The notes under the pieces are model-generated. The model was not told the DNA's origin. It did no database searches and saw only the letters and a program-made list of their open reading frames with translations. DNA of 64,000 nucleotides from Marchantia polymorpha subsp. ruderalis (taxonomy: Eukaryota; Streptophyta; Marchantiopsida; Marchantiales; Marchantiaceae), in NCBI GenBank assembly GCA_037833965.1, contig AP031355.1, positions 1,017,501 through 1,081,500 of the forward strand, in the 5' to 3' direction. A program made the translations under genes and the position numbers. Numbering within the stretch: position 1 is the first letter of the stretch; each line of letters opens with the position of its first letter. Below are positions 1 through 60,087 of the stretch, piece by piece.

Positions 1-399
1 ATTTAAACAATTTTAGAAAACTAGTACCAAAGCAGTGTTTGTAGCTAGAGAAGGGTACGCTAAATAGAGTGGATTGATGAGATCGTCACGAGGGCACCAA
101 GAATCACGTAGTCGGATGTACCAACGCCAACGTCTTCGGCGCCTTCGGCAAAGACTCATTTTTGAGGTGTCTCTACTCACGCGCCTTTAGCGTATAAGGA
201 AGCTACGCTTCCGGCGCAGACACCCCAGGAGGAGGTTTGGCTAAAGACGTCAGGAGAAGGGCCCGGACCTCTAAAGGCATCCGACCATGAGTGCGCCTTC
301 GGCGAAGCGCCGCTAGCGCGGAAAGGGAAAACCTTCATAACAATCGGGATACACGGTAGATCCAGTTGGTTGAAGTTGCATTAGAAAGAGCTCGGGACG

Positions 400-413
400 C
401 TCGTTCTAACGAG
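400..413 (+). promoter_or_regulatory. Conserved U3 block with CTCGTT-CT-AACGAG hairpin
   Basis: The hairpin CTCGTTCTAACGAG lies in a block (about 385-460) whose GAGCTC...CGAG.CCAAG core recurs in all four LTRs of the window: near 51000, 63650, and on the minus strand near 58240. Conservation across subfamilies whose surrounding U3 differs greatly suggests a regulatory or RNA-structural role. This is inference. Confidence 0.35.
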
Positions 414-1324
414 TCCAAGAGCGCCGGAGATGGATCAGGAATGGAGAAGTTATGAGCGTCGGAAAACTCGTAGCCGGACATGCGCCGTTCGCGCTAGGGT
501 TCACAGCCGGAAAGGATTCCCGTACGCCCTCGGCGATGCGCCTTCGGCGGAATCACGCGCTCACAGGAGGAAACCAACTCAGAGTCGGAAGCGCCCTTGG
601 CGGCTGTTCATGGAAGGAAAGCGCCGGTCGGATGTACGCCTCCGACGTGGCGCTGACGGCCGGACGCGCTGGCATGAGTTGCGCTGACGGCTATGCGCTG
701 GCAGCAACGGACGAGGCATAAAGGACAAAATAGGCGGTACGACTGCGCGCCGGCGTAATTCGCTCCGGCTGGATGTGCGCCTCCAGCAAGGCGCCGACGG
801 ATAATGAACGCACCAGCGGCGACACGCCTCCGGAGAAGGGCCGGGTTAGGAAAAGACAACAGGGCCGACGTATACCCTGCAGCGGACTCGAGTCCGGAAG
901 GTGGCGGCGGCGGGAGAATTCAACGTTTAAGCATGCGAATGCGCGCAATGCGGGGACGTGAATTCGCGCATGCAAAGGGCGAACCGTTAAGCCGTATAGC
1001 CGGCTGCGTACGTTGCAACCAGTAAGAACGTTGGACGTTCTTGAAATCGGAGAAGAAAAGACTGCGCTCCAGTCTCATTCTCTCATTCTTGACTTTGCGA
1101 TTTCCAGTTCCAAGATTACGCGCAAGGGCGGAGCGACCTGCAGTGAGAGTAGAGAGTGCGGAGACGAGTTGCACAAGGATCTTGGCGGACCTTGAAAGAA
1201 TTGGGAGTAGCGATCTTGAACGAGCGCAGAGAGAGTGAGCAGTCCGTGCTTGAGTGGCAGACGCGCAGTGGCGATTGTGAGAGAGTGAGCGACAGGGAGA
1301 ACGTTTGTGTGTGCAGGCAACGCA

Positions 1325-3880
1325 ATGTCGAAGGTTCCCCAACTGCGAGTGTCTCCACTCAGGGTGCCGCAGATCGGTCTACGCGCATTTCAAGATGTGC
1401 TGACGAGGCTGAAGCTCGATTTTCTCCTCTGGGGGTGGAATTGGACGTGTCCGGAGATGGTGCGCGAGTACCTGCAAGAGAGACACAAGCCTTCTCGCGG
1501 ATTTCGCCCACACCCAGAGAGATGGGAAATTTGCAATTGGGCGCAGGTGTTGGGCAGGTGTGCCGGCGAGGAAGGGGATCTCCTCTTCGAGGCCGAAAGC
1601 GTGAAAGTGTCCCAGGAGGAAGAAGTCTCTTACAATGAGCTCTTCAAGGTGGCTAGACATCCCAAGAACGGTTTCCGGACTCGGGATTACAAGGATCGAT
1701 TGCGGAGAAATGTCGCGACAGCATTGCTGCAGATATTGCAGCCGACCAAGACCGCTTACATGCATGGTTGGCAGGTAGAGTTCGTGGAGCTAGTGTTGTC
1801 AGGAGCTCCGGTGCATTGGGCACGACTTCTGTGGAAGGTGACGCGCCAACATGCGCAAGAAGAGAGGGGAGGAACGCTCAATCATCTATCGCCTTACTTA
1901 ATCGTGTTTTACCGGGCGATGGGATGTTTGACGAATGCTGAGAAAACTCGGTTTCCGCAGCTGAGTCGGTCTTATCCAGGTAGATATTCGAGGGAGGCCG
2001 AAGTAGACACGGATCCGGACGAGGAACCTGCCAGTACGCCTCCGGCTCCGGCTCCAGCCAGAGCAGCAGAAGAACGGCGAAGTGAGCGCATTCCGCGCAA
2101 GCGGAAGTGGGATGAGAGACCTGAGGACAGGCAGCCGGAAGTACCAGCTGCGCCGACTCGTGGTCGGCCCACCCCCGAGCCTCATAGTCGACCAAAACAG
2201 AGGGCACGCAGAATGCCAACTGTTACTGAGGAGACCAGGCGAACTCCGACCCGGCGGAATCTCACGCAGGAAGAGATAATTGCTCAGGTCCTAGGGAAGA
2301 CGGCAGAAACCTCTGCACAGAAGGCACCACGGCCTTCGGGAGGAGATGGACGGACTGACGACCGGCCGACTGCGAGTCGGATGACTGAAGGTCGACAGAC
2401 GGAAGGAAGGCCAACTGAACGGCGCGTTGAACCGGACAGCAGGCCGGAAGCGGAAGAGAGTTTGGCTGACGAGCCAACAATCCTCAGAGGGTCGTCTTCG
2501 GCGGAAGGCACTTCTGGAAGAACGCCACCAGCAAACAGGCCAAGTGGAGTCAAGACGCGCAGGGTGTATCCGACTCCCAGTCGGACAACTGCTGGTCGGC
2601 CGACTGCGAGTCGGACAACAGAGAGTCAGCCGGATTCGCCGACTGCGAGACGGATGGGGCCAACGACCAGTATGCGGACGCCTTCGGCGGACGCACCTTC
2701 AGCAAGGACACCTTCCGCGCAGATTGCGCCGGAAGGACAGGCAGCAAAAGCGGGCGGTGCAAGAGTGACAAAAGTCACTGCGGCGTCGACCCCTTCACAA
2801 ACCGAAGATCGAGCCGGAACAGGGGCTCAAGCAGTGGGATCTCCCACTGCCCTGGATATTTTAGCAGGCAGTGGAGCAGCAGTCGCAGCAGAAGCTGCTG
2901 CGCGCCACAGTTCCAGGGAGTCGCCAAGGGATTCGGTGGCAACTGAGATCCTCGAGACTGAGGATGAGACGAGCTCGGAAGAGCAAGAAGAGGATTCGGT
3001 GCAGAAAACGCCAACAGGGGTGCTGTGCGAACAGATAGTTCCACTCCTGCGATATCTGGATCGCAAGACATCCAAATACGCAAGTGCCTTAAAACCGCAG
3101 TCTTATGTGGAGACAATCAGGCGAAGGACGAGGAGCAAGGTGGCAAGGTGGGCCTCTAGATGCGGAGTATATGTGGATAGGAACACCGCCCTCCGACAAC
3201 ACCTGGCGGTCACCCAGAAGCTGTACCAAGCCTTGCAGCAGCAGAAGGAGGATGCGGCGACGAAGAGTCAGGCGGAGGCCGAACTAATACGGGCAAAGAT
3301 CGAGTCGGAACTGCAGGAGGAGCGGAGACAGAACAAAGTCCTAGCAGCCGAGCTTGCGCGCCAGACGCGCGCCTTAGAGGAAAGTCAACGAGCCCGCAAG
3401 GAGGATGAGGAGTTGTTGTGCAACTTGCAAACCGAGTGCTCGGATTTGAGGGCACAACGTGCGGATTTAGAAATGCAGCTGGCAGAGGTGGAGAGCAGCT
3501 GCAGGGCACGAGAAGAGTTGGCGGCACGGGTGACTCGTTGTCTAAACGGATACACCCATTGGGAGGTGGCAGCTCAAGAGAGGGTTACACTCCGGGAGTT
3601 CGAGCTTCGGGCGGCGGCATTGACGGAAGGTGACAGTCGGAGTCGGCGGCGAGTGGCGAGAAAATTAGAAACTTTCTTGTCGGGTGCGCGCGACACTATG
3701 GCGCACTTGCAGTCGGAAGTCACTGCAGCGCTCCGACGCCTGGGGTTACGCAGCCGGTCGGAAGACTGGCAAGGTAGAGACAGTAAGCGGAGCAGTCCGG
3801 CGCGAAGGAGGCGCAGCACCGGATCTGCTGAGTGCAGTAGAGTAGTTTGGTTTCGCGCAGATACTGCGAGTGGTAGATAG
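1325..3880 (+). CDS. LTR-encoded ORF (5' LTR copy), unknown accessory protein with C-terminal coiled coil
   Basis: An uninterrupted 851-codon ORF lies inside the LTR, upstream of the TATA box, so in U3. The ATG at 1325 is chosen because the tripeptide NAM around it recurs at the same place in the two solo-LTR copies; the frame opens just upstream at 1289. Three parts are visible. Residues 1-225 are a conserved globular-looking domain with FLLWGWN, RTRDYKDR and GGTLNHLSP motifs. Residues about 235-550 are a low-complexity Pro/Thr/Arg/Ser linker with PSA repeats. Residues about 560-851 are a conserved region starting LCEQIVPLLRYLDRK, with a long Glu/Arg/Gln-rich coiled coil (about 626-739) and a basic Arg/Ser tail (RRRRSTGSAECS). 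The N-terminal part vaguely recalls the 'putative plant transposon protein' domains of Athila-type elements, but I cannot confirm that. No enzyme motif is seen. Structural, nucleic-acid-binding or silencing-countering roles are all possible. Confidence 0.8.
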   Translation: MSKVPQLRVSPLRVPQIGLRAFQDVLTRLKLDFLLWGWNWTCPEMVREYLQERHKPSRGFRPHPERWEICNWAQVLGRCAGEEGDLLFEAESVKVSQEEEVSYNELFKVARHPKNGFRTRDYKDRLRRNVATALLQILQPTKTAYMHGWQVEFVELVLSGAPVHWARLLWKVTRQHAQEERGGTLNHLSPYLIVFYRAMGCLTNAEKTRFPQLSRSYPGRYSREAEVDTDPDEEPASTPPAPAPARAAEERRSERIPRKRKWDERPEDRQPEVPAAPTRGRPTPEPHSRPKQRARRMPTVTEETRRTPTRRNLTQEEIIAQVLGKTAETSAQKAPRPSGGDGRTDDRPTASRMTEGRQTEGRPTERRVEPDSRPEAEESLADEPTILRGSSSAEGTSGRTPPANRPSGVKTRRVYPTPSRTTAGRPTASRTTESQPDSPTARRMGPTTSMRTPSADAPSARTPSAQIAPEGQAAKAGGARVTKVTAASTPSQTEDRAGTGAQAVGSPTALDILAGSGAAVAAEAAARHSSRESPRDSVATEILETEDETSSEEQEEDSVQKTPTGVLCEQIVPLLRYLDRKTSKYASALKPQSYVETIRRRTRSKVARWASRCGVYVDRNTALRQHLAVTQKLYQALQQQKEDAATKSQAEAELIRAKIESELQEERRQNKVLAAELARQTRALEESQRARKEDEELLCNLQTECSDLRAQRADLEMQLAEVESSCRAREELAARVTRCLNGYTHWEVAAQERVTLREFELRAAALTEGDSRSRRRVARKLETFLSGARDTMAHLQSEVTAALRRLGLRSRSEDWQGRDSKRSSPARRRRSTGSAECSRVVWFRADTASGR

Positions 3881-3913
3881 GATAGCGTAGTGCTAGTTAG
3901 GATCTTTTGAGAG

Positions 3914-3942
3914 TATAAAGTAGATCAAGGCGTTTTGCCTTG
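3914..3942 (+). promoter_or_regulatory. LTR promoter TATA box and conserved hairpin (U3/R boundary)
   Basis: TATAAA at 3914-3919 is followed by the small hairpin CAAGGC-GTTTT-GCCTTG at about 3926-3942. The same TATA plus hairpin occurs in the 3' LTR, the outer solo LTR (60082) and, on the minus strand, the inner solo LTR (54205-54210). It lies just after the LTR ORF, so genomic RNA should start near 3945. That leaves the ORF in U3 and a leader of nearly 1 kb before gag. Confidence 0.6.
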
Positions 3943-4083
3943 GGACTCTTCCAGTTTCGGAAGTACAGATCAGGAACTCACTTTCTTGGCGTGTTTGTGC
4001 ATTTTGGTCCTGGCACCACGTAGAGAAGCTGCAGCATAGCGAAGTTACCGTATGTTGTAGTTGAAGGCCTTCGGCTGAATGTT

Positions 4084-4181
4084 CAGAGCTCGCACCCGGT
4101 TAGAGACTTGAGTAGTGCGGATCTGCACCTGCGGGTGATTTCTGATACTCAGAGCCGGCTGCGAGTTAGATACTTGAACAG
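4084..4181 (+). repeat. Imperfect direct repeat within R/U5
   Basis: Two diverged copies, about 4084-4115 and 4150-4181, share the pattern CAGAGC...GTTAGA.ACTTGA.CAG. The equivalent pair is visible in the solo LTRs near 60248 and 60316 and, inverted, near 53950-54050, so the duplication predates the split of the subfamilies. Confidence 0.5.
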
Positions 4182-4862
4182 TTCCCCCTTACTCCTTCGA
4201 GTGACATATCCTGATTGTACTCCTACGGGAAGTTTCCCCTGAATGCCAATGTGAAGTTTCATTACTTCGTGTAAACCTTGGTTTGTAATTCAGGTTGTGT
4301 GTGTGTTACTGGATCGTGTTTTCAGTAAGTTCTCAGTCGGGTCTGCACTCCCTGCGTTTTGTGTGATAGTCGAGGGTGACGTCCACGGCGTACGTAGAGG
4401 CTTCGTTCCGAAGTGAGAAGTCCAGTCCGGGTACCCCCGCTAGTTCCTGGCGGAAGGGCAGTAAAAGCCGGAGTGGGAGGCACTTCCTGCAGAACCTCTG
4501 AGTGAACTTACGAGACACTTTCCTCCTGAAATCCGAAGCGGAGGTCCTGACCGACCTCCGAGTTGTGCTTTTTGCCAGTTTCAGGTGTGTGTGTTTGTGT
4601 GTGTTGAGTGACCAAGCTGTACCGTGCATCCTCCGAGCATCCTCCGAGTTGAGTTCCTCCTCCGAGTCGAGCCTCCGAGTCGAGCACTACAGTATTTCTG
4701 GGAGTGACAGTCGCCTAGAATTCAAACTCTACCAAAAGTCTGTTAAACGTGACACTTTTACTCTGTGTGTTGCCTCTGTCCCTGTGGGTTCGATCTTTTT
4801 ACCACCATACTGCAGTTTTAGCCTTTGGTGGGTTATTACATAAGGAGCCGACAACTTCTTTT

Positions 4863-4880
4863 TGGCGCCGCTGCCGGGGA
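4863..4880 (+). other. Primer-binding site, tRNA-Asp type
   Basis: TGGCGCCGCTGCCGGGGA matches the complement of the plant tRNA-Asp 3' end (TGGCGCCGTTGCCGGGGA) with one mismatch. tRNA-Asp priming is known for Athila-type elements. The site begins 22 bases after the LTR end, an unusually large gap, because most PBSs lie within a few bases of U5. Confidence 0.8.
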
Positions 4881-4923: not shown

Positions 4924-7752
4924 ATGTCGACGAGCGATAGTGTGGGAAACCTGAGTGCGAGAGCCACACGGAAACTCCGTCGAGATTCAGAAAAAGCCGT
5001 GGAAACAAAACGGCGAACTAAAAAGAAGACTCCCGGTGAGGACTCTGCAGAAAGATCGCCATCACCGACTACTGGAAGACAAAGGTGTTCCAGTTCACCT
5101 ACCGAGAGCATTGAGCTAACAGTTCTATTGGACATCCCTCCGACAGGAACTCTTCCTGAGTTTGGCCAACCTAGGATCAGTCCGTCGACAGGATCACCGA
5201 TGGCAGAACATCAAGCCAATCTCCGCCAGGTGTTTTCCCAACCTACCACCAAACATTCGTATCCAAGATACACGGGAACGGGCGACGACGATGATGCAGA
5301 TTCATACATAAAGCTCTTCGAGTCTGTCTCCATCGCCAATCGTGAGACCAGTGATGAAGACAGATTACGAATCTTTCCTAGCCTGCTACGCAGACGAGCG
5401 CGTAGCTGGTACAACCATGAGAGCACCGACCCCACTGGCATCCGGACCTGGGCTCAGCTCAAGGAAAAGTTTCTGAAGCGGTTCCGCGAACTCGGATACG
5501 ACAGTCGAGTTCTGACCCGGCTTCGAAATCTTCGACGCGAGCGGAAGGAGAATCTTCGAGACTACACGGAGAGATTCCAAGACCTCCTAGATCGAATTCC
5601 GAAGACAGGCCCGGGAGAACCGTATTCGGTACAACAGGCAGTGGATTGGTATGTGACAGGGCTCTCAAGAGAAATGGAGACCTTCTATAGGAGAGGCAAG
5701 ACTGACACAATCCAAGATGTGATAGCTTCCGCGGAGACCTTTGAGACGTCAACCCTTGACACTCGAAGACGCGACCGACGGTCGACGAAGAAGAAGTCGC
5801 AAGGCGGACGTCGGAAGAGAAGGAACTCGCCTTCCTCGACAGAAGAATCAAGCTCCTCCGAATCAAGTTCTTCCTCGGAAGAGGAAGAGGACTCGTCATC
5901 TTCAGAAGAAGAAAGACGGAAGAAGAAACGCAGTGCGATCAAGAAGAAGGATCGAGGTAAGGGAATCCCAGTGAAGACTCAAGGGGACATCGCAGCCAAG
6001 GTAGACAACCTGGTGAAGAATTTTGCGGACCTGAAAGTTCATGTAGTGGGAGGCCAAGACCGACGTAAATCACCTGCGAGACAACGAGCGAATCTCTGGT
6101 GTACTACGTGCGGACAGGTGGGACATGCCAACACGGAGTGCATGTCCGCGAGGCCATCTTACCCAGTGAATGCGGTCGAATGGGCACCACAATGGGAGAA
6201 CCCCATGTATTATGCTGAGCCGCCTATGTATTATGCTGAGCAGGTTGAGGACACCGCCTACTCAGTACAGACAGCTCCAGCTACAACTCCGAACCCACCG
6301 GTGCATATACCGCGCTTTGTTCCAAGGGAAATGGCGGGTACACTCCCACCAAGACGCATGGCACCTCCAGGCAATCACAACCGACCTCGACCACAATTCG
6401 ATGGTTGCTACAACTGCGGAGACATGGGGCATTACGCGCCAAGCTGTCCCCACCCGAGGAAGCCAATGGGGTATGCACCATTGTGCAGCAATTGCAAGAA
6501 GTCTGGACATACAGCAGCCGAATGTGACCAGCCCCAAATCCCTAGGCCAGCCGTGCGTTTCGTATCAACACCTGGCAAGGAAGAGGTGCAGGTCAACCAG
6601 GTAGAACTGAGTCTGGACCCAGCTGAAGAAAACGAAGTATGGCCAGAGGAAGAAGTAATGTGCGGCCGGGTAGAAACCCGAAGTTCGAAGAGGAAAGGAG
6701 AAGGCCACGAGGACACTCGCCGCCTCGAGCGTAGGGAAGAGAGGAGGAAGTCTAAAGAAGTTAGAGAAGGCCCGAGGAGAAGGCCGGGTACACCTCCGGC
6801 TATGAGAAACACCCAGCCGGAGCAGAGCTCAGAAAAAGCGGACAGGTATTCAGAAGAGTTCCGGACTCGAGATTACCTTCCGGACATCAAAGATGAGGTG
6901 AGTCACCTCATCAAGGAAGCACTGAACGCCGGAATGACATCCGACGACCGGAAGGCGGTTAGGCCCCCTACACCCCTTCCGACCGCGAGTACAGGGAAAC
7001 TTCCGGCTGTGACTTCCAACACTCCCTACGACATAGTGAAAGACATGGGGAGCCAGAGGGCAAATATTTCCTTCCACCAGTTGTTGGAAGACAATAAGAC
7101 GTACAGGAGGATGCTGATGCTTTCGTTGCGCCGACCACGCAAACCCCGAAAAGAGAAACTTCCGGCTGTGTACAGAGTGGAAGGAGGAGACCTGGGACCA
7201 CCAGAGATCGAAGTAGAGATCGGAGGCTGTGTCATTCAGAAGGTACCAGTGGACTCCGGCTCGGGCGTGAATATCATGACCGAGGAGACAGCGAACTCCT
7301 TGGGGTTCCAGACCTTCGAGCCTACATCCCGAGTATTGCGACTGGCCGATCAAACACGCAGAATGCCACTAGGAATGTTGAGCAATGTGAGAACCAACAT
7401 TGGAGGAGTGGACTTTCAACTGTCCTACATAATACTGCAACCTCTGATGAAGAAAGGTTATGATGTGCTGCTTGGCAGACCGTGGCTATACGATGCCAAA
7501 GCAAGGTGTGACTGGAGTAGGAAGAGATTACAGTTCCGTAGCCCTGCGGACCCTCCGACTGTCATTACCGTACCGTGGACCAAGGTACCCCATGAGGGCG
7601 AAACACCTTCCACCACCTCCGGTTACACAACCGGAGGGGAGACCAGCTCATCATGCACTTCAGAGACCGAAACGTCAGAGGACTTTGTGGGCTACGTCAC
7701 TTGCTGCTCCATTGAGGAGGAAGGAGACGAGGTGTATCCGGATGAGGAATAG
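4924..7752 (+). CDS. gag: Gag-protease polyprotein
   Basis: 942 residues from the ATG at 4924, 44 bases after the PBS. Residues about 110-270 match the plant retrotransposon Gag capsid domain (SYIKLFESV, RARSWYNH, TWAQLKEKFLKRF). Residues about 282-345 are a basic and Ser/Glu-rich tract. Three CCHC zinc knuckles follow, for RNA packaging: C393-C396-H401-C406, C495-C498-H503-C508 and C521-C524-H529-C534. An aspartic protease lies near the C-terminus, with D777-S-G (VPVDSGSGVNIM) and the distal LLGRPWL. The protein assembles the cytoplasmic virus-like particle and matures itself. The ORF ends at a UAG (7750-7752) directly in frame with pol. It is longer than a typical gag because the protease is included and the linkers are long. 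No frameshift or internal stop is present. Confidence 0.95.
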   Translation: MSTSDSVGNLSARATRKLRRDSEKAVETKRRTKKKTPGEDSAERSPSPTTGRQRCSSSPTESIELTVLLDIPPTGTLPEFGQPRISPSTGSPMAEHQANLRQVFSQPTTKHSYPRYTGTGDDDDADSYIKLFESVSIANRETSDEDRLRIFPSLLRRRARSWYNHESTDPTGIRTWAQLKEKFLKRFRELGYDSRVLTRLRNLRRERKENLRDYTERFQDLLDRIPKTGPGEPYSVQQAVDWYVTGLSREMETFYRRGKTDTIQDVIASAETFETSTLDTRRRDRRSTKKKSQGGRRKRRNSPSSTEESSSSESSSSSEEEEDSSSSEEERRKKKRSAIKKKDRGKGIPVKTQGDIAAKVDNLVKNFADLKVHVVGGQDRRKSPARQRANLWCTTCGQVGHANTECMSARPSYPVNAVEWAPQWENPMYYAEPPMYYAEQVEDTAYSVQTAPATTPNPPVHIPRFVPREMAGTLPPRRMAPPGNHNRPRPQFDGCYNCGDMGHYAPSCPHPRKPMGYAPLCSNCKKSGHTAAECDQPQIPRPAVRFVSTPGKEEVQVNQVELSLDPAEENEVWPEEEVMCGRVETRSSKRKGEGHEDTRRLERREERRKSKEVREGPRRRPGTPPAMRNTQPEQSSEKADRYSEEFRTRDYLPDIKDEVSHLIKEALNAGMTSDDRKAVRPPTPLPTASTGKLPAVTSNTPYDIVKDMGSQRANISFHQLLEDNKTYRRMLMLSLRRPRKPRKEKLPAVYRVEGGDLGPPEIEVEIGGCVIQKVPVDSGSGVNIMTEETANSLGFQTFEPTSRVLRLADQTRRMPLGMLSNVRTNIGGVDFQLSYIILQPLMKKGYDVLLGRPWLYDAKARCDWSRKRLQFRSPADPPTVITVPWTKVPHEGETPSTTSGYTTGGETSSSCTSETETSEDFVGYVTCCSIEEEGDEVYPDEE

Positions 7753-7758: not shown

Positions 7759-10593
7759 GCAGCCGGACTGGGCAGAAGCGAGATCAGTCACACAGAGGGG
7801 ATTGTTGACCCGAGTGATTGCTGCGAACTGCAGCTCAGTCCAGGTAAAGGCTTGAAGGTGTCAAGCCAAGTACAAGGAGAAGAGTTGAACAGGGTACAGG
7901 CGTTTCTTCGCCAGTATGAGGATGTCTTCGCATGGAAGATTGAAGACATGAAAGGCATACCTGCAAGGTATGGAGAGCACAGGATCGACTTGTTGGACGA
8001 GGCAGTTCCGGTTCGCCAACGCCAATACAGGCTCAACCCAAAATATTCATTATTGGTGAAGGACGAAATCGATAAGTACCTGAGCGCAGGAATCATCTAC
8101 CCGGTACTCAGTAGCGAGTGGGTGTCGCCTATCGTGATCGTGCCCAAGAAACTGACGGGTAAGATCCGGGTGTGTCAGGACTTCAGGAAGCTGAACGCAG
8201 CAACGCGGAAGGACCATCACCCTCTTCCTTTCACGGACTCTATTCTGGACCATGTAGCAGGGCATGAATGCTACAGTTTCCTAGACGGATTTTCCGGATA
8301 CAACCAGGTGTCCATCAGGGAACAGGACAAGGACAAAACAACCTTCACAACCGACTGGGGAACCTATGCTTATCACAAGATGCCGTTCGGTCTGTGCAAC
8401 GCGCCAGCGACGTTCCAGCGGATGATGACAAACATCTTCCAAGAGCACCTGAGGAAGTTCCTAGAAATTTTCATCGACGACTTTTGTGTCTTCGGTAAGA
8501 GGTCGGAGCACCTTAACCATCTTCGGCAAACGTTCGACAGGTGTAGGGAAAGCAGCTTGTCCTTACACCCTGAGAAATGTTTTTTCTTCATGACCAGCGG
8601 AATCCTGCTGGGACACCGAGTTTCGTCCGATGGCATTGCAGTGGATGTAGAGAAGGTGAAGATTATTCTTGAACTGCAGCCGCCAACAAATCTGCGTGAG
8701 TTGAGGGCCTTCCTTGGTCATGTAGGTTATTACAGAAGGTTCATAAATATGTATGCCATCTTGGCAGCCGATCTGACGAAGCTGCTTAAGAAGGATGAAC
8801 CCTATGTGTGGGGCAAGGAGCAACAGCTGGCCTTTGAAACGCTCAAAGCCAAACTGACGACTGCTCCGGTTCTGAGAAGTCCGGATTGGAACAGACCTTT
8901 CCATGTCTATGTAGACACGTCGGCGTTTGCAATCGGGGTGGTTCTCAGTCAGAAGGATGACAACAAGAAAGACTACCCGATTTACTTCGCGAGTCGTCAG
9001 TTGTCAGCAGCAGAGAAGAAGTACACGACAACTGAGAGGGAGGCGTTGGGAATGGTGTACTCCTGCAAGAAGTTTCGACATTATTTGATCTGCTATGAGT
9101 TCGTGTTTCATGTAGATCATTACGCCTTACAGCACCTGGTGAAGAAGGCGGATCTGTCCGGACGAATTGCCAGGTGGGTACTACTGCTGCAGGAATTCAC
9201 CTACACTGTACAGACACGGAAAGGCGTTCACCATGAGAACGCGGACTACCTCTCCCGACTATGGACCGAACCTATAGAGGAGGAAGTAGTGGATGATTTT
9301 CCCGACGAACAACTTTTTCAGTTGTCCGCCAGCCATGAGTCCAGGTACGCGGACTTATACAGGTTTCTGCTCACACTCCAATGTCCGGAAGGATTGGATG
9401 CGGAGCAGCGCACAGTCTTCGTTCATAAAGCGGGACCTTACCAGCTTCAACAGGGGGTCTTGTTCAAGAAAATGGCAGACGAGAGGTTGTGCAGATGTCT
9501 AGAGGAGTCTGAAGTACCGCGAGTTGTCAAAGCCATGCACACAGAAGACGCTGGTGGTCACTACGCCACCAGAAACACAGTGACCAAAATTGTGAATGCA
9601 GGATACTGGTGGCCGACGATGTTCAAAGATGTACACGACTACGTTCGCAAATGCGACAGCTGCCAGAGGACGGGAAGGCCGACTCCGACCACGAGATGGC
9701 CTCTTACACCAATCATGCCATTGGCACCATTTGAAAAATGGGGGATCGACTTCGTGGGACCAATACAACCTGTCACTAAAGGCACGCGCAGGCGCTACAT
9801 ATTGGTAGCAACAGACTATGCGACCAAGATGGTGGAGGCAGAAGCCACAAGGCACGACGACGCAGCCGCAGTAGCACGGTTCCTATTCGAATCAATCATC
9901 ACACGCTACGGGTGCCCCCTAGAAATAGTCAGTGACAGAGGAACGCACTTTCTGAATCAGGTGATAGAGAGTTTGACGCGGCACTTCCAGATTAAGCATC
10001 GGAAGACTACTCCATACAACCCCAAGGCAAATGGTCTGACAGAGAAGTCCAATGGATTACTCTGTAAGATACTCCTCAAGGTGACTGTAAACCATGCTCA
10101 TGACTGGGACACCAAGCTACCGGCCGCCTTATGGGCATACAGAACGGCAGAAAAAGTCACCACCAGGCAAACACCTTACTTCCTAGTTTATGGGCAGCAT
10201 CCGATCTTACCCATCGAATTCGAGATACCTACCAAGAGGACCTTAGATCAGAGAAGGCTGGACGCGGAAGAAAGTCAGGCATATCGACTGCAAGAGGTAA
10301 TGGCACTGGAGGAAAGACGTCAAGAGGCCGAAGATCGAACAAAGCAATTACAACTCAGGCGGAAGGAGAAGTACGATCGAAGGCTCAAACCAGTACTGCT
10401 GGAGAAGGGCGACTCGGCTCTGCTATACGATAGCAGACATGCTAGATTTCCAGGCAAACTCCACTTGAGGTGGATGGGACCTTACAAGGTGATAGAAGTT
10501 TTCCCAAATGGATCCATCCAACTCGCAGAACTGACGGGAGAATGGTTAGGCACCCGCGTGAACGGATGGCGTCTGAAGAAATACCACGTGTAA
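7753..10593 (+). CDS. pol: Pol: reverse transcriptase, RNase H and integrase
   Basis: 946 codons are open after the UAG. Residues below count from 7852, where conserved pol sequence begins. The RT has D145 (LDGFSGYNQV) and the FIDD box with D209 and D210. The RNase H has D355 (HVYVDTS), E395/E397 (TTEREALG) and D422 (HVDHYALQHL). The integrase has an HHCC zinc finger (H563, H570, C601, C604) and the catalytic triad D633, D695 and E731 with canonical D-35-E spacing. The C-terminus has a WMGPYKV motif and ends VNGWRLKKYHV, with no chromodomain. All catalytic residues are present and no stop or frameshift is seen, so the enzyme looks functional. It copies element RNA into cDNA in the particle and inserts it into chromosomes. 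It is probably made only as a Gag-Pol readthrough product. Confidence 0.95.
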   Translation, partial: QLAAGLGRSEISHTEGIVDPSDCCELQLSPGKGLKVSSQVQGEELNRVQAFLRQYEDVFAWKIEDMKGIPARYGEHRIDLLDEAVPVRQRQYRLNPKYSLLVKDEIDKYLSAGIIYPVLSSEWVSPIVIVPKKLTGKIRVCQDFRKLNAATRKDHHPLPFTDSILDHVAGHECYSFLDGFSGYNQVSIREQDKDKTTFTTDWGTYAYHKMPFGLCNAPATFQRMMTNIFQEHLRKFLEIFIDDFCVFGKRSEHLNHLRQTFDRCRESSLSLHPEKCFFFMTSGILLGHRVSSDGIAVDVEKVKIILELQPPTNLRELRAFLGHVGYYRRFINMYAILAADLTKLLKKDEPYVWGKEQQLAFETLKAKLTTAPVLRSPDWNRPFHVYVDTSAFAIGVVLSQKDDNKKDYPIYFASRQLSAAEKKYTTTEREALGMVYSCKKFRHYLICYEFVFHVDHYALQHLVKKADLSGRIARWVLLLQEFTYTVQTRKGVHHENADYLSRLWTEPIEEEVVDDFPDEQLFQLSASHESRYADLYRFLLTLQCPEGLDAEQRTVFVHKAGPYQLQQGVLFKKMADERLCRCLEESEVPRVVKAMHTEDAGGHYATRNTVTKIVNAGYWWPTMFKDVHDYVRKCDSCQRTGRPTPTTRWPLTPIMPLAPFEKWGIDFVGPIQPVTKGTRRRYILVATDYATKMVEAEATRHDDAAAVARFLFESIITRYGCPLEIVSDRGTHFLNQVIESLTRHFQIKHRKTTPYNPKANGLTEKSNGLLCKILLKVTVNHAHDWDTKLPAALWAYRTAEKVTTRQTPYFLVYGQHPILPIEFEIPTKRTLDQRRLDAEESQAYRLQEVMALEERRQEAEDRTKQLQLRRKEKYDRRLKPVLLEKGDSALLYDSRHARFPGKLHLRWMGPYKVIEVFPNGSIQLAELTGEWLGTRVNGWRLKKYHV

Positions 10594-10628: not shown

Positions 10629-11986
10629 CATGTGGTAACACACTTTTTGTTTTTTTTGCAGAATTTAAACAATTTTAGAAAACTAGTACCAAAGCAGTGT
10701 TTGTAGCTAGAGAAGGGTACGCTAAATAGAGTGGATTGATGAGATCGTCACGAGGGCACCAAGAATCACGTAGTCGGATGTACCAACGCCAACGTCTTCG
10801 GCGCCTTCGGCAAAGACTCATTTTTGAGGTGTCTCTACTCACGCGCCTTTAGCGTATAAGGAAGCTACGCTTCCGGCGCAGACACCCCAGGAGGAGGTTT
10901 GGCTAAAGACGTCAGGAGAAGGGCCCGGACCTCTAAAGGCATCCGACCATGAGTGCGCCTTCGGCGAAGCGCCGCTAGCGCGGAAAGGGAAAACCTTCAT
11001 AACAATCGGGATACACGGTAGATCCAGTTGGTTGAAGTTGCATTAGAAAGAGCTCGGGACGCTCGTTCTAACGAGTCCAAGAGCGCCGGAGATGGATCAG
11101 GAATGGAGAAGTTATGAGCGTCGGAAAACTCGTAGCCGGACATGCGCCGTTCGCGCTAGGGTTCACAGCCGGAAAGGATTCCCGTACGCCCTCGGCGATG
11201 CGCCTTCGGCGGAATCACGCGCTCACAGGAGGAAACCAACTCAGAGTCGGAAGCGCCCTTGGCGGCTGTTCATGGAAGGAAAGCGCCGGTCGGATGTACG
11301 CCTCCGACGTGGCGCTGACGGCCGGACGCGCTGGCATGAGTTGCGCTGACGGCTATGCGCTGGCAGCAACGGACGAGGCATAAAGGACAAAATAGGCGGT
11401 ACGACTGCGCGCCGGCGTAATTCGCTCCGGCTGGATGTGCGCCTCCAGCAAGGCGCCGACGGATAATGAACGCACCAGCGGCGACACGCCTCCGGAGAAG
11501 GGCCGGGTTAGGAAAAGACAACAGGGCCGACGTATACCCTGCAGCGGACTCGAGTCCGGAAGGTGGCGGCGGCGGGAGAATTCAACGTTTAAGCATGCGA
11601 ATGCGCGCAATGCGGGGACGTGAATTCGCGCATGCAAAGGGCGAACCGTTAAGCCGTATAGCCGGCTGCGTACGTTGCAACCAGTAAGAACGTTGGACGT
11701 TCTTGAAATCGGAGAAGAAAAGACTGCGCTCCAGTCTCATTCTCTCATTCTTGACTTTGCGATTTCCAGTTCCAAGATTACGCGCAAGGGCGGAGCGACC
11801 TGCAGTGAGAGTAGAGAGTGCGGAGACGAGTTGCACAAGGATCTTGGCGGACCTTGAAAGAATTGGGAGTAGCGATCTTGAACGAGCGCAGAGAGAGTGA
11901 GCAGTCCGTGCTTGAGTGGCAGACGCGCAGTGGCGATTGTGAGAGAGTGAGCGACAGGGAGAACGTTTGTGTGTGCAGGCAACGCA

Positions 11987-14542
11987 ATGTCGAAGGTTCC
12001 CCAACTGCGAGTGTCTCCACTCAGGGTGCCGCAGATCGGTCTACGCGCATTTCAAGATGTGCTGACGAGGCTGAAGCTCGATTTTCTCCTCTGGGGGTGG
12101 AATTGGACGTGTCCGGAGATGGTGCGCGAGTACCTGCAAGAGAGACACAAGCCTTCTCGCGGATTTCGCCCACACCCAGAGAGATGGGAAATTTGCAATT
12201 GGGCGCAGGTGTTGGGCAGGTGTGCCGGCGAGGAAGGGGATCTCCTCTTCGAGGCCGAAAGCGTGAAAGTGTCCCAGGAGGAAGAAGTCTCTTACAATGA
12301 GCTCTTCAAGGTGGCTAGACATCCCAAGAACGGTTTCCGGACTCGGGATTACAAGGATCGATTGCGGAGAAATGTCGCGACAGCATTGCTGCAGATATTG
12401 CAGCCGACCAAGACCGCTTACATGCATGGTTGGCAGGTAGAGTTCGTGGAGCTAGTGTTGTCAGGAGCTCCGGTGCATTGGGCACGACTTCTGTGGAAGG
12501 TGACGCGCCAACATGCGCAAGAAGAGAGGGGAGGAACGCTCAATCATCTATCGCCTTACTTAATCGTGTTTTACCGGGCGATGGGATGTTTGACGAATGC
12601 TGAGAAAACTCGGTTTCCGCAGCTGAGTCGGTCTTATCCAGGTAGATATTCGAGGGAGGCCGAAGTAGACACGGATCCGGACGAGGAACCTGCCAGTACG
12701 CCTCCGGCTCCGGCTCCAGCCAGAGCAGCAGAAGAACGGCGAAGTGAGCGCATTCCGCGCAAGCGGAAGTGGGATGAGAGACCTGAGGACAGGCAGCCGG
12801 AAGTACCAGCTGCGCCGACTCGTGGTCGGCCCACCCCCGAGCCTCATAGTCGACCAAAACAGAGGGCACGCAGAATGCCAACTGTTACTGAGGAGACCAG
12901 GCGAACTCCGACCCGGCGGAATCTCACGCAGGAAGAGATAATTGCTCAGGTCCTAGGGAAGACGGCAGAAACCTCTGCACAGAAGGCACCACGGCCTTCG
13001 GGAGGAGATGGACGGACTGACGACCGGCCGACTGCGAGTCGGATGACTGAAGGTCGACAGACGGAAGGAAGGCCAACTGAACGGCGCGTTGAACCGGACA
13101 GCAGGCCGGAAGCGGAAGAGAGTTTGGCTGACGAGCCAACAATCCTCAGAGGGTCGTCTTCGGCGGAAGGCACTTCTGGAAGAACGCCACCAGCAAACAG
13201 GCCAAGTGGAGTCAAGACGCGCAGGGTGTATCCGACTCCCAGTCGGACAACTGCTGGTCGGCCGACTGCGAGTCGGACAACAGAGAGTCAGCCGGATTCG
13301 CCGACTGCGAGACGGATGGGGCCAACGACCAGTATGCGGACGCCTTCGGCGGACGCACCTTCAGCAAGGACACCTTCCGCGCAGATTGCGCCGGAAGGAC
13401 AGGCAGCAAAAGCGGGCGGTGCAAGAGTGACAAAAGTCACTGCGGCGTCGACCCCTTCACAAACCGAAGATCGAGCCGGAACAGGGGCTCAAGCAGTGGG
13501 ATCTCCCACTGCCCTGGATATTTTAGCAGGCAGTGGAGCAGCAGTCGCAGCAGAAGCTGCTGCGCGCCACAGTTCCAGGGAGTCGCCAAGGGATTCGGTG
13601 GCAACTGAGATCCTCGAGACTGAGGATGAGACGAGCTCGGAAGAGCAAGAAGAGGATTCGGTGCAGAAAACGCCAACAGGGGTGCTGTGCGAACAGATAG
13701 TTCCACTCCTGCGATATCTGGATCGCAAGACATCCAAATACGCAAGTGCCTTAAAACCGCAGTCTTATGTGGAGACAATCAGGCGAAGGACGAGGAGCAA
13801 GGTGGCAAGGTGGGCCTCTAGATGCGGAGTATATGTGGATAGGAACACCGCCCTCCGACAACACCTGGCGGTCACCCAGAAGCTGTACCAAGCCTTGCAG
13901 CAGCAGAAGGAGGATGCGGCGACGAAGAGTCAGGCGGAGGCCGAACTAATACGGGCAAAGATCGAGTCGGAACTGCAGGAGGAGCGGAGACAGAACAAAG
14001 TCCTAGCAGCCGAGCTTGCGCGCCAGACGCGCGCCTTAGAGGAAAGTCAACGAGCCCGCAAGGAGGATGAGGAGTTGTTGTGCAACTTGCAAACCGAGTG
14101 CTCGGATTTGAGGGCACAACGTGCGGATTTAGAAATGCAGCTGGCAGAGGTGGAGAGCAGCTGCAGGGCACGAGAAGAGTTGGCGGCACGGGTGACTCGT
14201 TGTCTAAACGGATACACCCATTGGGAGGTGGCAGCTCAAGAGAGGGTTACACTCCGGGAGTTCGAGCTTCGGGCGGCGGCATTGACGGAAGGTGACAGTC
14301 GGAGTCGGCGGCGAGTGGCGAGAAAATTAGAAACTTTCTTGTCGGGTGCGCGCGACACTATGGCGCACTTGCAGTCGGAAGTCACTGCAGCGCTCCGACG
14401 CCTGGGGTTACGCAGCCGGTCGGAAGACTGGCAAGGTAGAGACAGTAAGCGGAGCAGTCCGGCGCGCAGGAGGCGCAGCACCGGATCTGCTGAGTGCAGT
14501 AGAGTAGTTTGGTTTCGCGCAGATACTGCGAGTGGTAGATAG
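11987..14542 (+). CDS. LTR-encoded ORF (3' LTR copy)
   Basis: Same 851-residue protein as at 1325-3880, identical in translation. In the genomic RNA, which should start near 3945 and run through to R in the 3' LTR, this is the copy that would be carried in full, as a third cistron after gag-pro and pol. Expression would need a spliced or separate transcript, because it begins about 1.4 kb after the pol stop. The position is like that of accessory genes in the 3' U3 of some retroviruses. No splice sites can be assigned from sequence alone. Confidence 0.8.
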   Translation: MSKVPQLRVSPLRVPQIGLRAFQDVLTRLKLDFLLWGWNWTCPEMVREYLQERHKPSRGFRPHPERWEICNWAQVLGRCAGEEGDLLFEAESVKVSQEEEVSYNELFKVARHPKNGFRTRDYKDRLRRNVATALLQILQPTKTAYMHGWQVEFVELVLSGAPVHWARLLWKVTRQHAQEERGGTLNHLSPYLIVFYRAMGCLTNAEKTRFPQLSRSYPGRYSREAEVDTDPDEEPASTPPAPAPARAAEERRSERIPRKRKWDERPEDRQPEVPAAPTRGRPTPEPHSRPKQRARRMPTVTEETRRTPTRRNLTQEEIIAQVLGKTAETSAQKAPRPSGGDGRTDDRPTASRMTEGRQTEGRPTERRVEPDSRPEAEESLADEPTILRGSSSAEGTSGRTPPANRPSGVKTRRVYPTPSRTTAGRPTASRTTESQPDSPTARRMGPTTSMRTPSADAPSARTPSAQIAPEGQAAKAGGARVTKVTAASTPSQTEDRAGTGAQAVGSPTALDILAGSGAAVAAEAAARHSSRESPRDSVATEILETEDETSSEEQEEDSVQKTPTGVLCEQIVPLLRYLDRKTSKYASALKPQSYVETIRRRTRSKVARWASRCGVYVDRNTALRQHLAVTQKLYQALQQQKEDAATKSQAEAELIRAKIESELQEERRQNKVLAAELARQTRALEESQRARKEDEELLCNLQTECSDLRAQRADLEMQLAEVESSCRAREELAARVTRCLNGYTHWEVAAQERVTLREFELRAAALTEGDSRSRRRVARKLETFLSGARDTMAHLQSEVTAALRRLGLRSRSEDWQGRDSKRSSPARRRRSTGSAECSRVVWFRADTASGR

Positions 14543-14575
14543 GATAGCGTAGTGCTAGTTAGGATCTTTTGAGAG

Positions 14576-14604
14576 TATAAAGTAGATCAAGGCGTTTTGC
14601 CTTG
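14576..14604 (+). promoter_or_regulatory. TATA box and hairpin of the 3' LTR
   Basis: Copy of the 3914-3942 element. A transcript starting here would read out of the element into 15503 onward. Confidence 0.5.
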
Positions 14605-15502
14605 GGACTCTTCCAGTTTCGGAAGTACAGATCAGGAACTCACTTTCTTGGCGTGTTTGTGCATTTTGGTCCTGGCACCACGTAGAGAAGCTGCAGCATA
14701 GCGAAGTTACCGTATGTTGTAGTTGAAGGCCTTCGGCTGAATGTTCAGAGCTCGCACCCGGTTAGAGACTTGAGTAGTGCGGATCTGCACCTGCGGGTGA
14801 TTTCTGATACTCAGAGCCGGCTGCGAGTTAGATACTTGAACAGTTCCCCCTTACTCCTTCGAGTGACATATCCTGATTGTACTCCTACGGGAAGTTTCCC
14901 CTGAATGCCAATGTGAAGTTTCATTACTTCGTGTAAACCTTGGTTTGTAATTCAGGTTGTGTGTGTGTTACTGGATCGTGTTTTCAGTAAGTTCTCAGTC
15001 GGGTCTGCACTCCCTGCGTTTTGTGTGATAGTCGAGGGTGACGTCCACGGCGTACGTAGAGGCTTCGTTCCGAAGTGAGAAGTCCAGTCCGGGTACCCCC
15101 GCTAGTTCCTGGCGGAAGGGCAGTAAAAGCCGGAGTGGGAGGCACTTCCTGCAGAACCTCTGAGTGAACTTACGAGACACTTTCCTCCTGAAATCCGAAG
15201 CGGAGGTCCTGACCGACCTCCGAGTTGTGCTTTTTGCCAGTTTCAGGTGTGTGTGTTTGTGTGTGTTGAGTGACCAAGCTGTACCGTGCATCCTCCGAGC
15301 ATCCTCCGAGTTGAGTTCCTCCTCCGAGTCGAGCCTCCGAGTCGAGCACTACAGTATTTCTGGGAGTGACAGTCGCCTAGAATTCAAACTCTACCAAAAG
15401 TCTGTTAAACGTGACACTTTTACTCTGTGTGTTGCCTCTGTCCCTGTGGGTTCGATCTTTTTACCACCATACTGCAGTTTTAGCCTTTGGTGGGTTATTA
15501 CA

Positions 15503-50671: not shown

Positions 50672-50879
50672 TGTGGTAACCCACTTTTTGTTTTTGTGCG
50701 GAATTTAAAACATTTTTGGAAAACAGTACCGAAGCAGCCGTGTAAATGGTAATCGGTACATTTAAATAGAGTGAAGATGGATAATCGCGGGTCTCGTATG
50801 ATCTCGTAGAATCCAGGAGTTGGGCGCAATGTCCGGAATAGGCGCCCCAACCTGAACGATCAATTCTGAAGGAGATCTC

Positions 50880-51575
50880 CTTCGGCGCAAGGCGCATAAT
50901 CCGCCTTCGGCGATACGCCTTTGGCGCTAGGGAAATCCCTCAGATATTATTCAATTCACAACGCCTTGACTTGGTTTGGGTGTCGTTGAAAAGTGCTCAA
51001 CACGTTCGTTCTAACGAGCCCAAGCACGCTTAGAACGGATGAGGACTCAAGGAGTTATGATTATCGAAAGATACGTAAACAGTCGCATTCGGCGGAAGAT
51101 CCGCCTTCGGCCCTAGATGTTCGACTTCGGAGGTGAAATTCTTCGTACGGCGCCTTCGGCGCCAGCGCATCAAGATTAGGTAAGTGCCTTCGGGGGTAGC
51201 AACTCCATACGGTCCGCCTTCGGCTCAACGCCCTCGGCGGTACGGACATGTGCGCCTTCGGCGGAACAGAGCTCCGGCGGCAAAAGCGCCTTCGGAGGGA
51301 CAAGAGGGATCGACAAAAAGGACAAGACCCATTGACTACGGTCAATGCCTTCGGCACAGCCGCCTTCGGCGCTGCGCCTTCGGCGATGCACCTACGTCGA
51401 CGAACGTCTTCAAGAAGTTCGCCTTCGGCGCTGGGAGTCAACGCCTTCAGCGGTAGATGTTTGCCTTCGGCGCTGCGGGTCAACGCCTTCGGCGATGCGG
51501 GATAGATATGAGTTGCGAGTCGGCCAGAGGCGAAAGACTTTATCGCCGCGCCTTCGGCGATACGCCTTCGACACT
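50880..51575. repeat. Cluster of CGCCTTCGGCG micro-palindromes
   Basis: Roughly twenty exact or near copies of CGCCTTCGGCG (stem CGCC/GGCG around TTC) in about 700 bases of U3, for example near 50903, 51162, 51255, 51361, 51374, 51420, 51485 and 51550. The homologous region of the intact element has only a few. Confidence 0.8.
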
Positions 51576-52006
51576 GCGCGAACACGGCCACGGCGAAGTA
51601 CGATGGCGGAAATCAAATTGAATTTTCGAGCGTGTGAGTCCGCGCGACGGCGGAGCGTGAAGCCGCGCGTGCGAGAGGAGGGCCGTTACGCCTCCAAGCC
51701 GGCACAGCCATCAAGCGAGTCGACACTCACGACCAAGTGTCGACAATGAAATCTTGTGAGCCAAGGGCGGACGACTCATTCTTGAATTTGCAATTTTGAT
51801 TTCTTGTGAGAGCTGCGCGCGCACACATTCTGGCAGAGAGAAAATCGAGAAGGCGACGCGCAGAGACTTGCATAGCAAGTGGGAGCAAGCTGAGTGCGCG
51901 AATGCAGGAATTGAGAGAGATTAAAGTTTGCAGAGGAATCGCAGCCGCGGGCAAGAAGCTTGGGCATAGCGGAGGAGAGTTTGCAAAATCCGATTTCAAG
52001 AACGCA

Positions 52007-53234
52007 ATGTCGAAGGTCATTCAGCTGCGGATGATCCCGCTGAAGATTTCGCAGATTGGGCTGCGCGCTTTCCAGACCCAACTGTCTGCGGTGAAGCTCA
52101 ATTTCCTCCTGTGGGGATGGAATTACGTGCGCCAGGACATGGTGCGCGAATGGCAGAGGAAGAGACACCAACCTACGCGCGGGTTTTGACCGCACGTAGA
52201 GCGTTGGACCGTCCAAGATTGGACACAGGTACTGGGAAGATGTGCGACAGAGGACGGATATCTCATATTTGATAGCTAGAGCATCAAGGTCACGAAGGAG
52301 AAGGAGATTTGCTTTGCGACCCTGTTCACGAGTGCAAAGTCCAGCAAGAATGGGTACAGGACCCTGGACTACAAGGATCGCTACCGCAGAAATGTTGCGG
52401 TAGCACTTCTCCGACTCTTGCAGCCGCACAAGACCACATACATCACTTCTTGGCAAGTGTCTTTCGTAGAGCTGGCGTTGGTCGGAGCTCCGATTCACTG
52501 GGCGCGCATCTTATGGAAGATAACGCTGCAGCATGCGTTTGAGTAGAAGGGGGGATCGATCAATCATCTCTCCCCCTTCTTGATCAACTTTTATCGGTCG
52601 ATGGGTTGCCTAACCGCGACCGAGCGTGTTCAATTTCCATTGCTATCACTTAGCAATCCCGAGAGGTATGTGAAGGATGTCGAGGTCAACACCGACACGG
52701 AAGAGACTCATGCCTCCACGCCACCAGCCCAACAGAGTGCGGGAAGGGAAACATTCGTAGCGCGAGTGCCGCGGAAGCGAAGATGGAAGTGAGAAGGGTC
52801 AACATCGAGACTCGGCTGCTCTCAAACGGAAGCGGCCATTGGAGGAGCTCTGCAGTCGTCCAAGCAGAAAGCACGCAGGCTCGTATTGCCTGCAAGTAGC
52901 GCGGAGATAGGACGTGCCGCCGAAGAGAAGAAGACACCATCCTTGGAGGAGGACGGGAACACGCGGACGGCAGAGGGGTCAGCGGACCTCCCTACGCCGA
53001 AGGCACGGACGCCTTCGGCGAAAGCAAGACGGCCTTCAGGTCAAGAGAGACGACACGCGGCACCGATAAATGTGCCGGCAACGGATAGGAGTTCCGCACG
53101 AGCACCGTACGCGGACTCGCCTTTGGGGCTGGGGCCTTCGGCTCGAGCGTCTTCGGCGCAACGGAGGAAGGGAAAGGAGCCGGCGGAAGATCCGCCTTCG
53201 GCGCAAGGGCCTTCGGGCCAAGGAGTTGCGAGTA
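52007..53234 (+). pseudogene. Broken LTR ORF of the outer solo LTR, first part
   Basis: Begins at the conserved NAM start (52007) and follows the intact LTR ORF closely: LRAFQTQLSAVKLNFLLWGWN, DYKDRYRRNVAVALL, INHLSPFLINFYRSMGCLT. In-frame stops lie at 52187 (TGA), 52277 (TAG), 52544 (TAG) and 52790 (TGA). The first replaces an Arg CGN codon, as expected from deamination of methylated CpG. The Pro/Ser-rich linker carries many PSA units encoded by CCTTCGGCG-type palindromes. The ORF is then split by the inner solo LTR at 53235 and resumes at 58602. Confidence 0.8.
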
Positions 53235-53432
53235 TGTAATAACCCACTAAAGGCTAAAACTGCAATATAGTGGTAGAAAGGTCGAACCCACAGGGACAGA
53301 GGAACACACAGGGTACAAAGTGTCACGTTTTAACAGACTATTGAGGAGTTTGAATTCTCAGGCAACTGTCACTCCCAGAAATACTGCAAGTGTCCACTCG
53401 GAGCGCACTCGGAGGTCGCACAGTGCAGCGTA

Positions 53433-53451
53433 ACACACACACACACACACC
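53433..53451. repeat. (AC)n microsatellite in U5 of inner LTR
   Basis: About nine AC units; the homologous U5 position in the outer LTR (60836-60853) carries (TG)n, so the tract is a family feature. Confidence 0.8.
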
Positions 53452-54204
53452 TGAAACTACAGAAACACAACCCAGAGATCCGTTAGGACCTCTACTCAAG
53501 ATTTCAGGGGGGGGGGAAAGTCTCTCGGGAGTACACTCAGCGAAGCTGCGGGTAGTGACTCCCAACTCCGGCTTTTACAACACTTCCGCTAGCTTGCTGC
53601 TAGCGTAGGAAACCCGGTTTGGACTGCCTACTTCGGATCGAAGTCACTCAGACGCGGTGAACAACACTCTCAACTCACAAAACGCGCAGAGAACACAGGT
53701 CCGCACTGAAGGACTCACGGAGAAGCATTCCAGTAACACAACAACAGTCTATTGAAGAGTTTGAATTCTCAGGCACTTGTCATTCCCAGAAATACTACAG
53801 GGGTTACCCTCAAGGCACCGGCTGCAGCGTAACCTGAATTTACAACCAAGGCTTACACGAAGTAGCAAAACTTCACTTTGACATTCAGGGGAAAAATCCC
53901 AAGGGAGTACAATCAGAAAGGAACACTCGAAGGTGTAGGGGCGAAACTGTTCAAGTATCTAACTAGTCACTGGCTCTGAGCATCGGCAGTCACCCGCAGG
54001 TGCAGATCCGAACTACTCAAGTCTCTAACCAATGTACTAGCTCTGAACATTCGGCCGAAGGCCTTCAGCTACAAAATGCGGAACGCTAAGTTGTAACTCC
54101 TCATGCGTGGTGACAGAACTCAAGGACACAAACACGCAAAGGAAATGGGTTCCTGATCTGCACTTCTGATGGGAAAGAACCCAAGGCAAAACGCCTTGAA
54201 CTAT

Positions 54205-54210
54205 TTTATA
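54205..54210 (-). promoter_or_regulatory. TATA box of inner solo LTR
   Basis: TATAAA on the minus strand, followed by the conserved AAGGCG-TTTT-GCCTT hairpin (about 54181-54197), as in the intact element. Confidence 0.5.
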
Positions 54211-54246
54211 CCTTCTAAGTCCTAACTAGCACTACACTTCACTACG

Positions 54247-57102: not shown

Positions 57103-57599
57103 TGCGTTCCTGGAGTTCGCTCGCCCGCTCATTCTACTTCCGCACCACCCGAGCTCCTTTCTCTCTCGGCAAACTCTAATCGCCCTCAATTCCAAATCAC
57201 GCGCACTCACTTCTCCCTCAATCACCAAGAAATCCTCTATGCGGCGATGTCGAGAATGCTTAGCAGCCAGCAGATGGACGCGCGCAGCTCGCACAAGAGA
57301 ATGGAATCGCGAATTCAAGAATGGGACGCTCTCCGCCGCCCGGTCGAAGGTCATGGTCGGCTCTTGCTCGTGGAGGACGTCTCAATTGATGGCCGCGCCG
57401 GCTCTACGCTGAAACGGTCTCCGCTCTCACGCGCGGCTTCACGCTCCGCCGTCGCCGATTAAACTCTCACGCTCGAATTGGCGGATTGAACTCCGCGAGC
57501 GTACTACCCCGCGGACATGGGTGCGCAGCGCCGAAGGCGAGTTTTCCGCCTTGCGCGGTACACTTGTTCGTACCGCTCCTCAGCCAATCCCCTTCTGCC

Positions 57600-58200: not shown

Positions 58201-58601
58201 TAGTGATAACTCCCTAAGTCCTCATCCGTTCCAAGCGTTCTTGGGCTCGTTGGAATCAGTGCGTTGAGCTCTTTCCAACGAGACCCTAACTAGGTCAAGG
58301 CGCCCGGGGGTTGACCTAAATATGAAGGATTTCCCTACCGCCGCGGACGCAGCTTCCGAAGGCGGGTTTTGCGCCTTGCGCCGTAGGGATCCTAACTGCA
58401 GAGCTCGTAGGGAGGGTGGTTTCCGTCCTTACTGCTGCACCCAACTCCTAGATTCTACGAGATCCCTCGAGAATCCCCGCGATCTTCCGAATTCACTCTG
58501 TTTTGATGCACCGAAGGCTATTTACATTGCTGCCAGGGTACAGTTTTTCCAAAAATGTTTTAATTTCCTCAAAATTATCAAAAGTGGGGTACCACAGAGT
58601 A

Positions 58602-60045: not shown

Positions 60046-60081
60046 TGTAGTGTAGGGTAGTGTTAGTTAGGACTTAGAAGG

Positions 60082-60087
60082 TATAAA
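60082..60087 (+). promoter_or_regulatory. TATA box of outer solo LTR
   Basis: TATAAA followed by AAGGCG-TCTT-GCCTT, the same arrangement as at 3914. It could start transcription toward 61063 onward. Confidence 0.5.

Follow-up and report, generated by a model that had tools for sequence, protein, structure and literature searches.

The extra open reading frames (ORFs) of plant long terminal repeat (LTR) retrotransposons have been described from the internal region of the element, usually in the stretch that separates pol from the 3′ LTR (PMC7264820; this and the other papers are cited for the part of their text that was available). Among them are the env-like ORF of Athila and the antisense ORFs of Grande, RIRE2, and Retand. 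In the rice elements Retrosat2, RIRE3, and RIRE8, ORF0 shows a nonsynonymous substitution rate (Ka) above that of the gag-pol ORF and below its synonymous rate (Ks) (PMC3485330). A protein gene within the U3 region of the LTR is known from mouse mammary tumor virus (MMTV), in which Sag is driven from a U3 promoter of its own, P2 (PMC9412291). Here, we describe an 851-codon ORF in the U3 region of both LTRs of a Ty3/gypsy retrotransposon of the liverwort Marchantia polymorpha. The element lies in a 64,000-nt stretch of DNA, referred to as the window (C6:1017501-1081500 of a 241-Mb, nine-contig assembly, which the genome-wide searches covered). We consider it probable that the ORF is an accessory gene of this Ty3/gypsy lineage, transcribed from its own promoter in U3 and encoding a product that acts in trans.

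The likeness to the sag/naf gene of the betaretrovirus MMTV, which had been proposed in an earlier note on this DNA, holds for the position of a protein gene in U3, upstream of what we take to be the genomic promoter. In the clade of the window element (clade A), it may extend to a separate start in U3, which an ATG-poor leader suggests. The two systems differ in that the Marchantia gene belongs to a plant Ty3/gypsy element and encodes a protein of ~850 amino acids that has no membrane segment by hydropathy and matches no known family in sequence or fold. Like the extra ORFs of Athila, Grande, RIRE2, and Retand, it is a conserved non-gag-pol ORF present in many copies of a plant lineage; those ORFs are internal, whereas the Marchantia ORF is in sense orientation inside the LTR and thus survives in solo LTRs (PMC7264820). 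It shares with ORF0 an unknown role and LTRs of ~3 kb or more, but ORF0 belongs to grasses and precedes gag-pol, and the available text does not place it inside the LTR (PMC3485330). Tat Z elements have been reported from Marchantia, with no extra RNase H in liverworts; these Ty3/gypsy elements share superfamily and host with ours, and the available part of that paper mentions no LTR ORF (PMC10508981).

The LTR gene and its copies

The window element encodes Gag, protease, and then reverse transcriptase (RT), RNase H, and integrase, all between two LTRs of 4,872 nt that differ by a single mismatch. The target site duplication (TSD) CAACG is found on both outer flanks, and this match together with the near identity of the LTRs indicates that the insertion is young. 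Plant elements are not generally expected to encode protein inside their flanking repeats. The 3′ LTR (10631..15502, plus strand, with CAACG directly after it) nevertheless contains the ORF at 11987..14542 (plus strand), beginning with an ATG at 11987, 1,356 nt past the LTR start, and ending with a stop codon at 14542. The same frame recurs at 1325..3880 (plus strand) in the 5′ LTR (1..4840, plus strand), whose first 32 nt precede the window. Coordinates, LTR alignment, and TSD thus bear out the earlier description of an 851-codon ORF in U3 of both LTRs, upstream of a TATA box. Owing to this location, a full element has two copies of the gene, and a solo LTR has one. Its product can be divided into an N domain (residues 1 to 240), a low-complexity linker (241 to 560), and a likely coiled-coil and helical C part (561 to 851) with a basic tail.

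The ORF is not open in the window insertion alone. We scored 53 copies, the best of 13,524 first-look candidates and therefore biased towards intact ones, and 52 of them were free of internal stops. Of the 53, 30 cluster at 13 places, at which neighboring copies are spaced 10.6 to 10.9 kb apart, which fits LTR-internal-LTR units. Among 50 scored copies of pol, seven lie between such ORF pairs, on C3, C5 (two), C6 (two, the window's included), C7, and C9, and in all seven, pol starts 6,523 to 6,532 nt past the upstream ORF. The ORF is thus present in both LTRs of these seven elements, as counted from two partially overlapping sets, the best 53 ORF copies and the 50 scored pol copies. Rounded identity was 100% in the pol set and 98 to 100% in the ORF set; the LTR gene may be more variable than pol among young copies, and the two sets consist mostly of different copies. 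Longer arrays were also seen: five ORF copies at C6:10770097-10815297 have a spacing of 10,662 nt, as for LTR-internal-LTR-internal arrays, and three at C5:9246393-9270257 have a spacing of 10,656 nt with pol copies in between. In some public gene models, pieces of the LTR ORF are fused to gag (P0015) or to integrase (P0072 and P0086); these models look like annotation artifacts of retroelements.

The gene lies inside the LTR in two deeply diverged subfamilies. The second, subfamily B, comprises 30 loci retrieved with the gene model P0016. A repeat boundary, TGTG[AG]T, is found in 24 of these loci (the other six are degenerate or different there), and it resembles the LTR start of the window element. 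Outside this boundary, the 200-nt flanks share a 14-mer in only one of 435 pairs (L055/L056). An LTR-like boundary with unrelated flanks places the ORF inside the LTR in subfamily B as well. In the B locus L039, the ORF begins 542 nt past the LTR start, and its N domain is 46% identical to that of the window protein and ~42% identical to those of L009 and L030. The equivalent start ATG is kept in 29 of the 30 loci. The frame of L039 ends early, after 238 codons, and a fully intact B copy was therefore not seen; the gene model P0137 seems, by eye, to retain the N domain, the coiled coil, and the C-terminal helical block.

Two diverged LTR copies that had been noted in the window proved to be TSD-flanked solo LTRs, with damaged ORFs. 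The minus-strand copy (53235..58596; 5,362 nt; TSD TACTC) carries its ORF split into two frames, 57354-55501 and 55470-54247. It is nested in the plus-strand copy (50672..61062; ~5,024 nt without the insert and the insert's TSD; TSD AAGTG), which for this reason had appeared as two pieces. The ORF of the plus-strand copy is decayed, its N part running from 52007 with three stops and its C part ending at 60045. The coordinates previously given for the two copies were limits of ORFs rather than of LTRs. A third LTR-like start of the diverged kind, at 63319-64000, runs off the window end.

Purifying selection and the nature of the protein

The protein is under purifying selection, as judged from substitution patterns at several depths of divergence. 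We compared clade A copies pairwise with the window ORF by the Nei-Gojobori method, leaving out L001 to L008 and all parts with fewer than 60 aligned codons. The median proportions of nonsynonymous (pN) and synonymous (pS) differences were 0.247 and 0.632 in the N domain (28 copies), 0.424 and 0.688 in the linker (32 copies), and 0.300 and 0.689 in the C part (32 copies). In subfamily B, where sites are unsaturated, the median ratio of nonsynonymous to synonymous rates (dN/dS) was 0.22 (range, 0.11 to 0.47; 29 copies versus L039). Among young copies, the window ORF differs from L003 by 15 synonymous and 6 nonsynonymous changes (P = 1.3 × 10−5), and P was ≤0.0063 in four of the six pairs formed by four such copies. 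Mismatches were in excess at the third codon position in all five sets: the rates at positions 1, 2, and 3 were 0.159, 0.147, and 0.347 in subfamily B; 0.289, 0.231, and 0.505 in the clade A N domain; 0.452, 0.404, and 0.636 in the linker; 0.359, 0.271, and 0.567 in the C part; and 0.004, 0.003, and 0.016 in three young copies. The selection suspected in the earlier note is thus supported, with dN/dS far below 1.

The predicted protein has a mass of 95.6 kDa and an isoelectric point of 9.7. The linker consists of 53% P/S/T/G/A residues, residues 631 to 770 are 71% E/K/R/Q/L/A, and the last 81 residues carry a net charge of +13. From its composition and sequence, rather than from a predictor, the C part is likely a coiled coil. 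The highest 19-residue Kyte-Doolittle mean is 1.22, and by hydropathy alone, no transmembrane segment, as would mark an env-like protein, was found. A structure model of the N domain shows mostly helices, is confident for a core of approximately residues 90 to 165, and gave no credible structural match. A Pfam search of the protein returned two weak unrelated matches below cutoff, and a PDB sequence search returned none at E values up to 1.

Because both subfamilies, despite their deep divergence, retain the gene as part of the element, its product would be an accessory factor for the element. A regulatory or antisilencing factor in the nucleus is our leading guess, if a tentative one, since the protein is basic, soluble, and probably coiled coil; a role as an RNA-binding component of the particle seems less likely and is rather doubtful.

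A different origin would be the move of an ancestral internal gene, env-like or of the plant transposon type, into the LTR, where it would have retained an earlier function in assembling particles or in binding RNA. The extra ORFs of plant elements lie mostly between pol and the 3′ LTR (PMC7264820), with the LTR ORF just beyond that place, and a basic tail with a likely coiled coil would suit nucleic acid binding. We nevertheless regard such a relocation as unlikely. In two weak tests, the Pfam families listed for 40 and 53 members of the protein family did not include PF20167 (Transposase_32, a plant transposon protein), and a genome search for it gave no match but was uninformative, as no control matched either. 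No relation to the element's own Gag was detected, and the hydropathy profile does not suggest an env-like protein.

Expression signals around the ORF

In clade A, the ORF is flanked by signals that suggest two separate transcripts. Downstream, a TATA box at 14576..14582 (plus strand) is presumed to be the promoter of the genomic RNA. TATAAA is found no more than 80 nt past the ORF in all 23 LTRs examined, that is, the window LTR and those copies with a match to residue 838 and >700 nt behind it. Upstream, we compared 29 LTRs, excluding L001, L002, L004, L006, and L008 (partners or near duplicates of kept copies), L033 (with 133 nt of upstream sequence), and any copy with a match starting beyond residue 2. 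AACGC[AG]ATG stands at the ORF start in 26 of these 29, and an initiator-like motif, [CT]CATT[CT]TTG[AG], lies upstream in 26; the loci of the three copies without the motif (L034, L035, and L037) hold just 157 to 208 nt upstream, too short to include it. In the window, the stretch from motif to ORF start (11745..11986, plus strand) is free of ATG and is our proposed 5′ untranslated region (UTR). Across the 26 leaders of clade A (222 to 254 nt), we counted 10 ATGs versus 98.7 expected, and upstream of the motif, where no marked depletion is seen, we counted 61 versus 69.4 expected. When three young copies were dropped, ATG had the lowest ratio of all 64 trinucleotides in the remaining 23 leaders (10 versus 88.1 expected).

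The simplest reading of the ATG-poor leader is that of a scanned 5′ UTR, which suggests a private U3 promoter in the clade of the window element, as in MMTV sag. In that clade, the mRNA of the ORF would start at a TATA-less promoter ~240 nt upstream of the ATG and end within the same LTR, for which we assume a terminator, and the genomic RNA would start at the downstream TATA box. The product would be a soluble, basic, self-associating coiled-coil protein acting in trans for the element. Taken further, each LTR, with promoter, 851-codon ORF, and terminator, might be a complete gene within a retrotransposon's own promoter region, and solo LTRs might be stand-alone selfish genes; we hold this extension to be possible but less than even in its chances.

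Alternatively, the ORF could be expressed by splicing, with a subgenomic RNA that begins at the 5′ LTR TATA box and joins R/U5 to the ORF in the 3′ LTR; the earlier note had suggested such a junction from the leader near 3945. The window copy does have a 3′ splice-like site just before the ATG as well as CAGTAAGT in R/U5, the gene models P0072 and P0086 join integrase, and P0015 joins gag, to the ORF, and an ATG-poor leader would also fit a start at a splice acceptor. Across copies, though, the donor CAGTAAGT occurs in 1 of 23 LTRs (other donors fall outside that count) and the acceptor in 5 of 29, and the gene models are predictions. Furthermore, in each of the 23 LTRs, the first 330 nt of the genomic RNA leader contain two to six ATGs, though a spliced leader could keep them. 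The proposed junction thus finds little support among the copies, and we consider expression by splicing improbable. The weakest alternative, a long GC-rich open frame without protein function, is refuted on these data: the LTR GC content of 0.56 does lengthen chance frames, but the open frame spans 863 codons from stop to stop, whereas the longest frames in 300 first-order Markov resamplings of the LTR averaged 191 codons and never exceeded 366, and the third-position excess, low dN/dS, and conserved start speak against it.

Several points weigh against an accessory gene with its own promoter. The pN/pS of ~0.4 in both terminal domains of clade A comes from synonymous sites near saturation, which makes exact omega values unreliable, and two of the six young pairs show no significant selection (L003/L007, P = 0.12; L005/L007, P = 0.17). 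Decay is common among the diverged copies, and with all of them related to one another, the counts are not independent; the decay pushes selection values towards neutrality. In the clade A leaders, TAA and TAT are the next most depleted trinucleotides, and 5 of the 26 leaders belong to the young window-like family. Subfamily B has no depletion of ATG between the LTR start and an upstream in-frame ATG (117 versus 98.5 expected; 27 copies, with L055, L056, and L066 excluded), and we therefore limit the promoter model to the clade of the window element. The 58 codons that come after this upstream ATG show weak constraint (median pN, 0.181; pS, 0.248; 29 copies). Finally, no homolog of known function was found by Pfam, PDB, or fold searches, and the function of the protein, read from its composition, is a guess.

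The host element and implications of an LTR gene

The other features of the window element are those of a Ty3/gypsy retrotransposon. A putative primer-binding site, read by eye, lies 22 nt past the 5′ LTR (4863..4880, plus strand) and presumably resembles known plant primer sites. It is followed by a gag-protease ORF (4924..7752, plus strand) with Retrotrans_gag, zinc knuckles, and aspartyl-protease matches that are weak and below their cutoffs, and by a pol ORF (7852..10593, plus strand) with RT, RNase H, and integrase. The RNase H matches of the pol ORF are only to models adjoining RT, and a chromodomain, the mark of chromoviruses, is absent among the six Pfam families listed for this ORF at E values up to 1. 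All protein matches that name an organism name Marchantia polymorpha. Elsewhere in the window, a 98-nt repeat occurs four times in tandem at 46641-47032, with copies 2 to 4 being 73 to 92% like the first, and ORFs at 22149-23672 (minus strand; 507 amino acids) and 37154-38308 (plus strand; 384 amino acids) have no Pfam match at E values up to 1.

The extra ORFs of plant elements have so far been described from the internal region (PMC7264820), and here one lies inside the LTR and is kept by selection. With a selected ORF in this position, a solo LTR becomes a possible gene, more than the scar of a promoter, and the neutral evolution of LTRs that insertion dating assumes no longer holds. If each LTR is indeed a complete gene, the lineage would offer an independently evolved plant counterpart to the genes that complex retroviruses carry in U3, with a hitherto undescribed protein family, and a solo LTR could still supply a factor acting in trans for the element once the element itself has been lost. 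As Marchantia is a genetic model, a role of the protein in countering silencing, in regulation, or in the particle is directly testable there.
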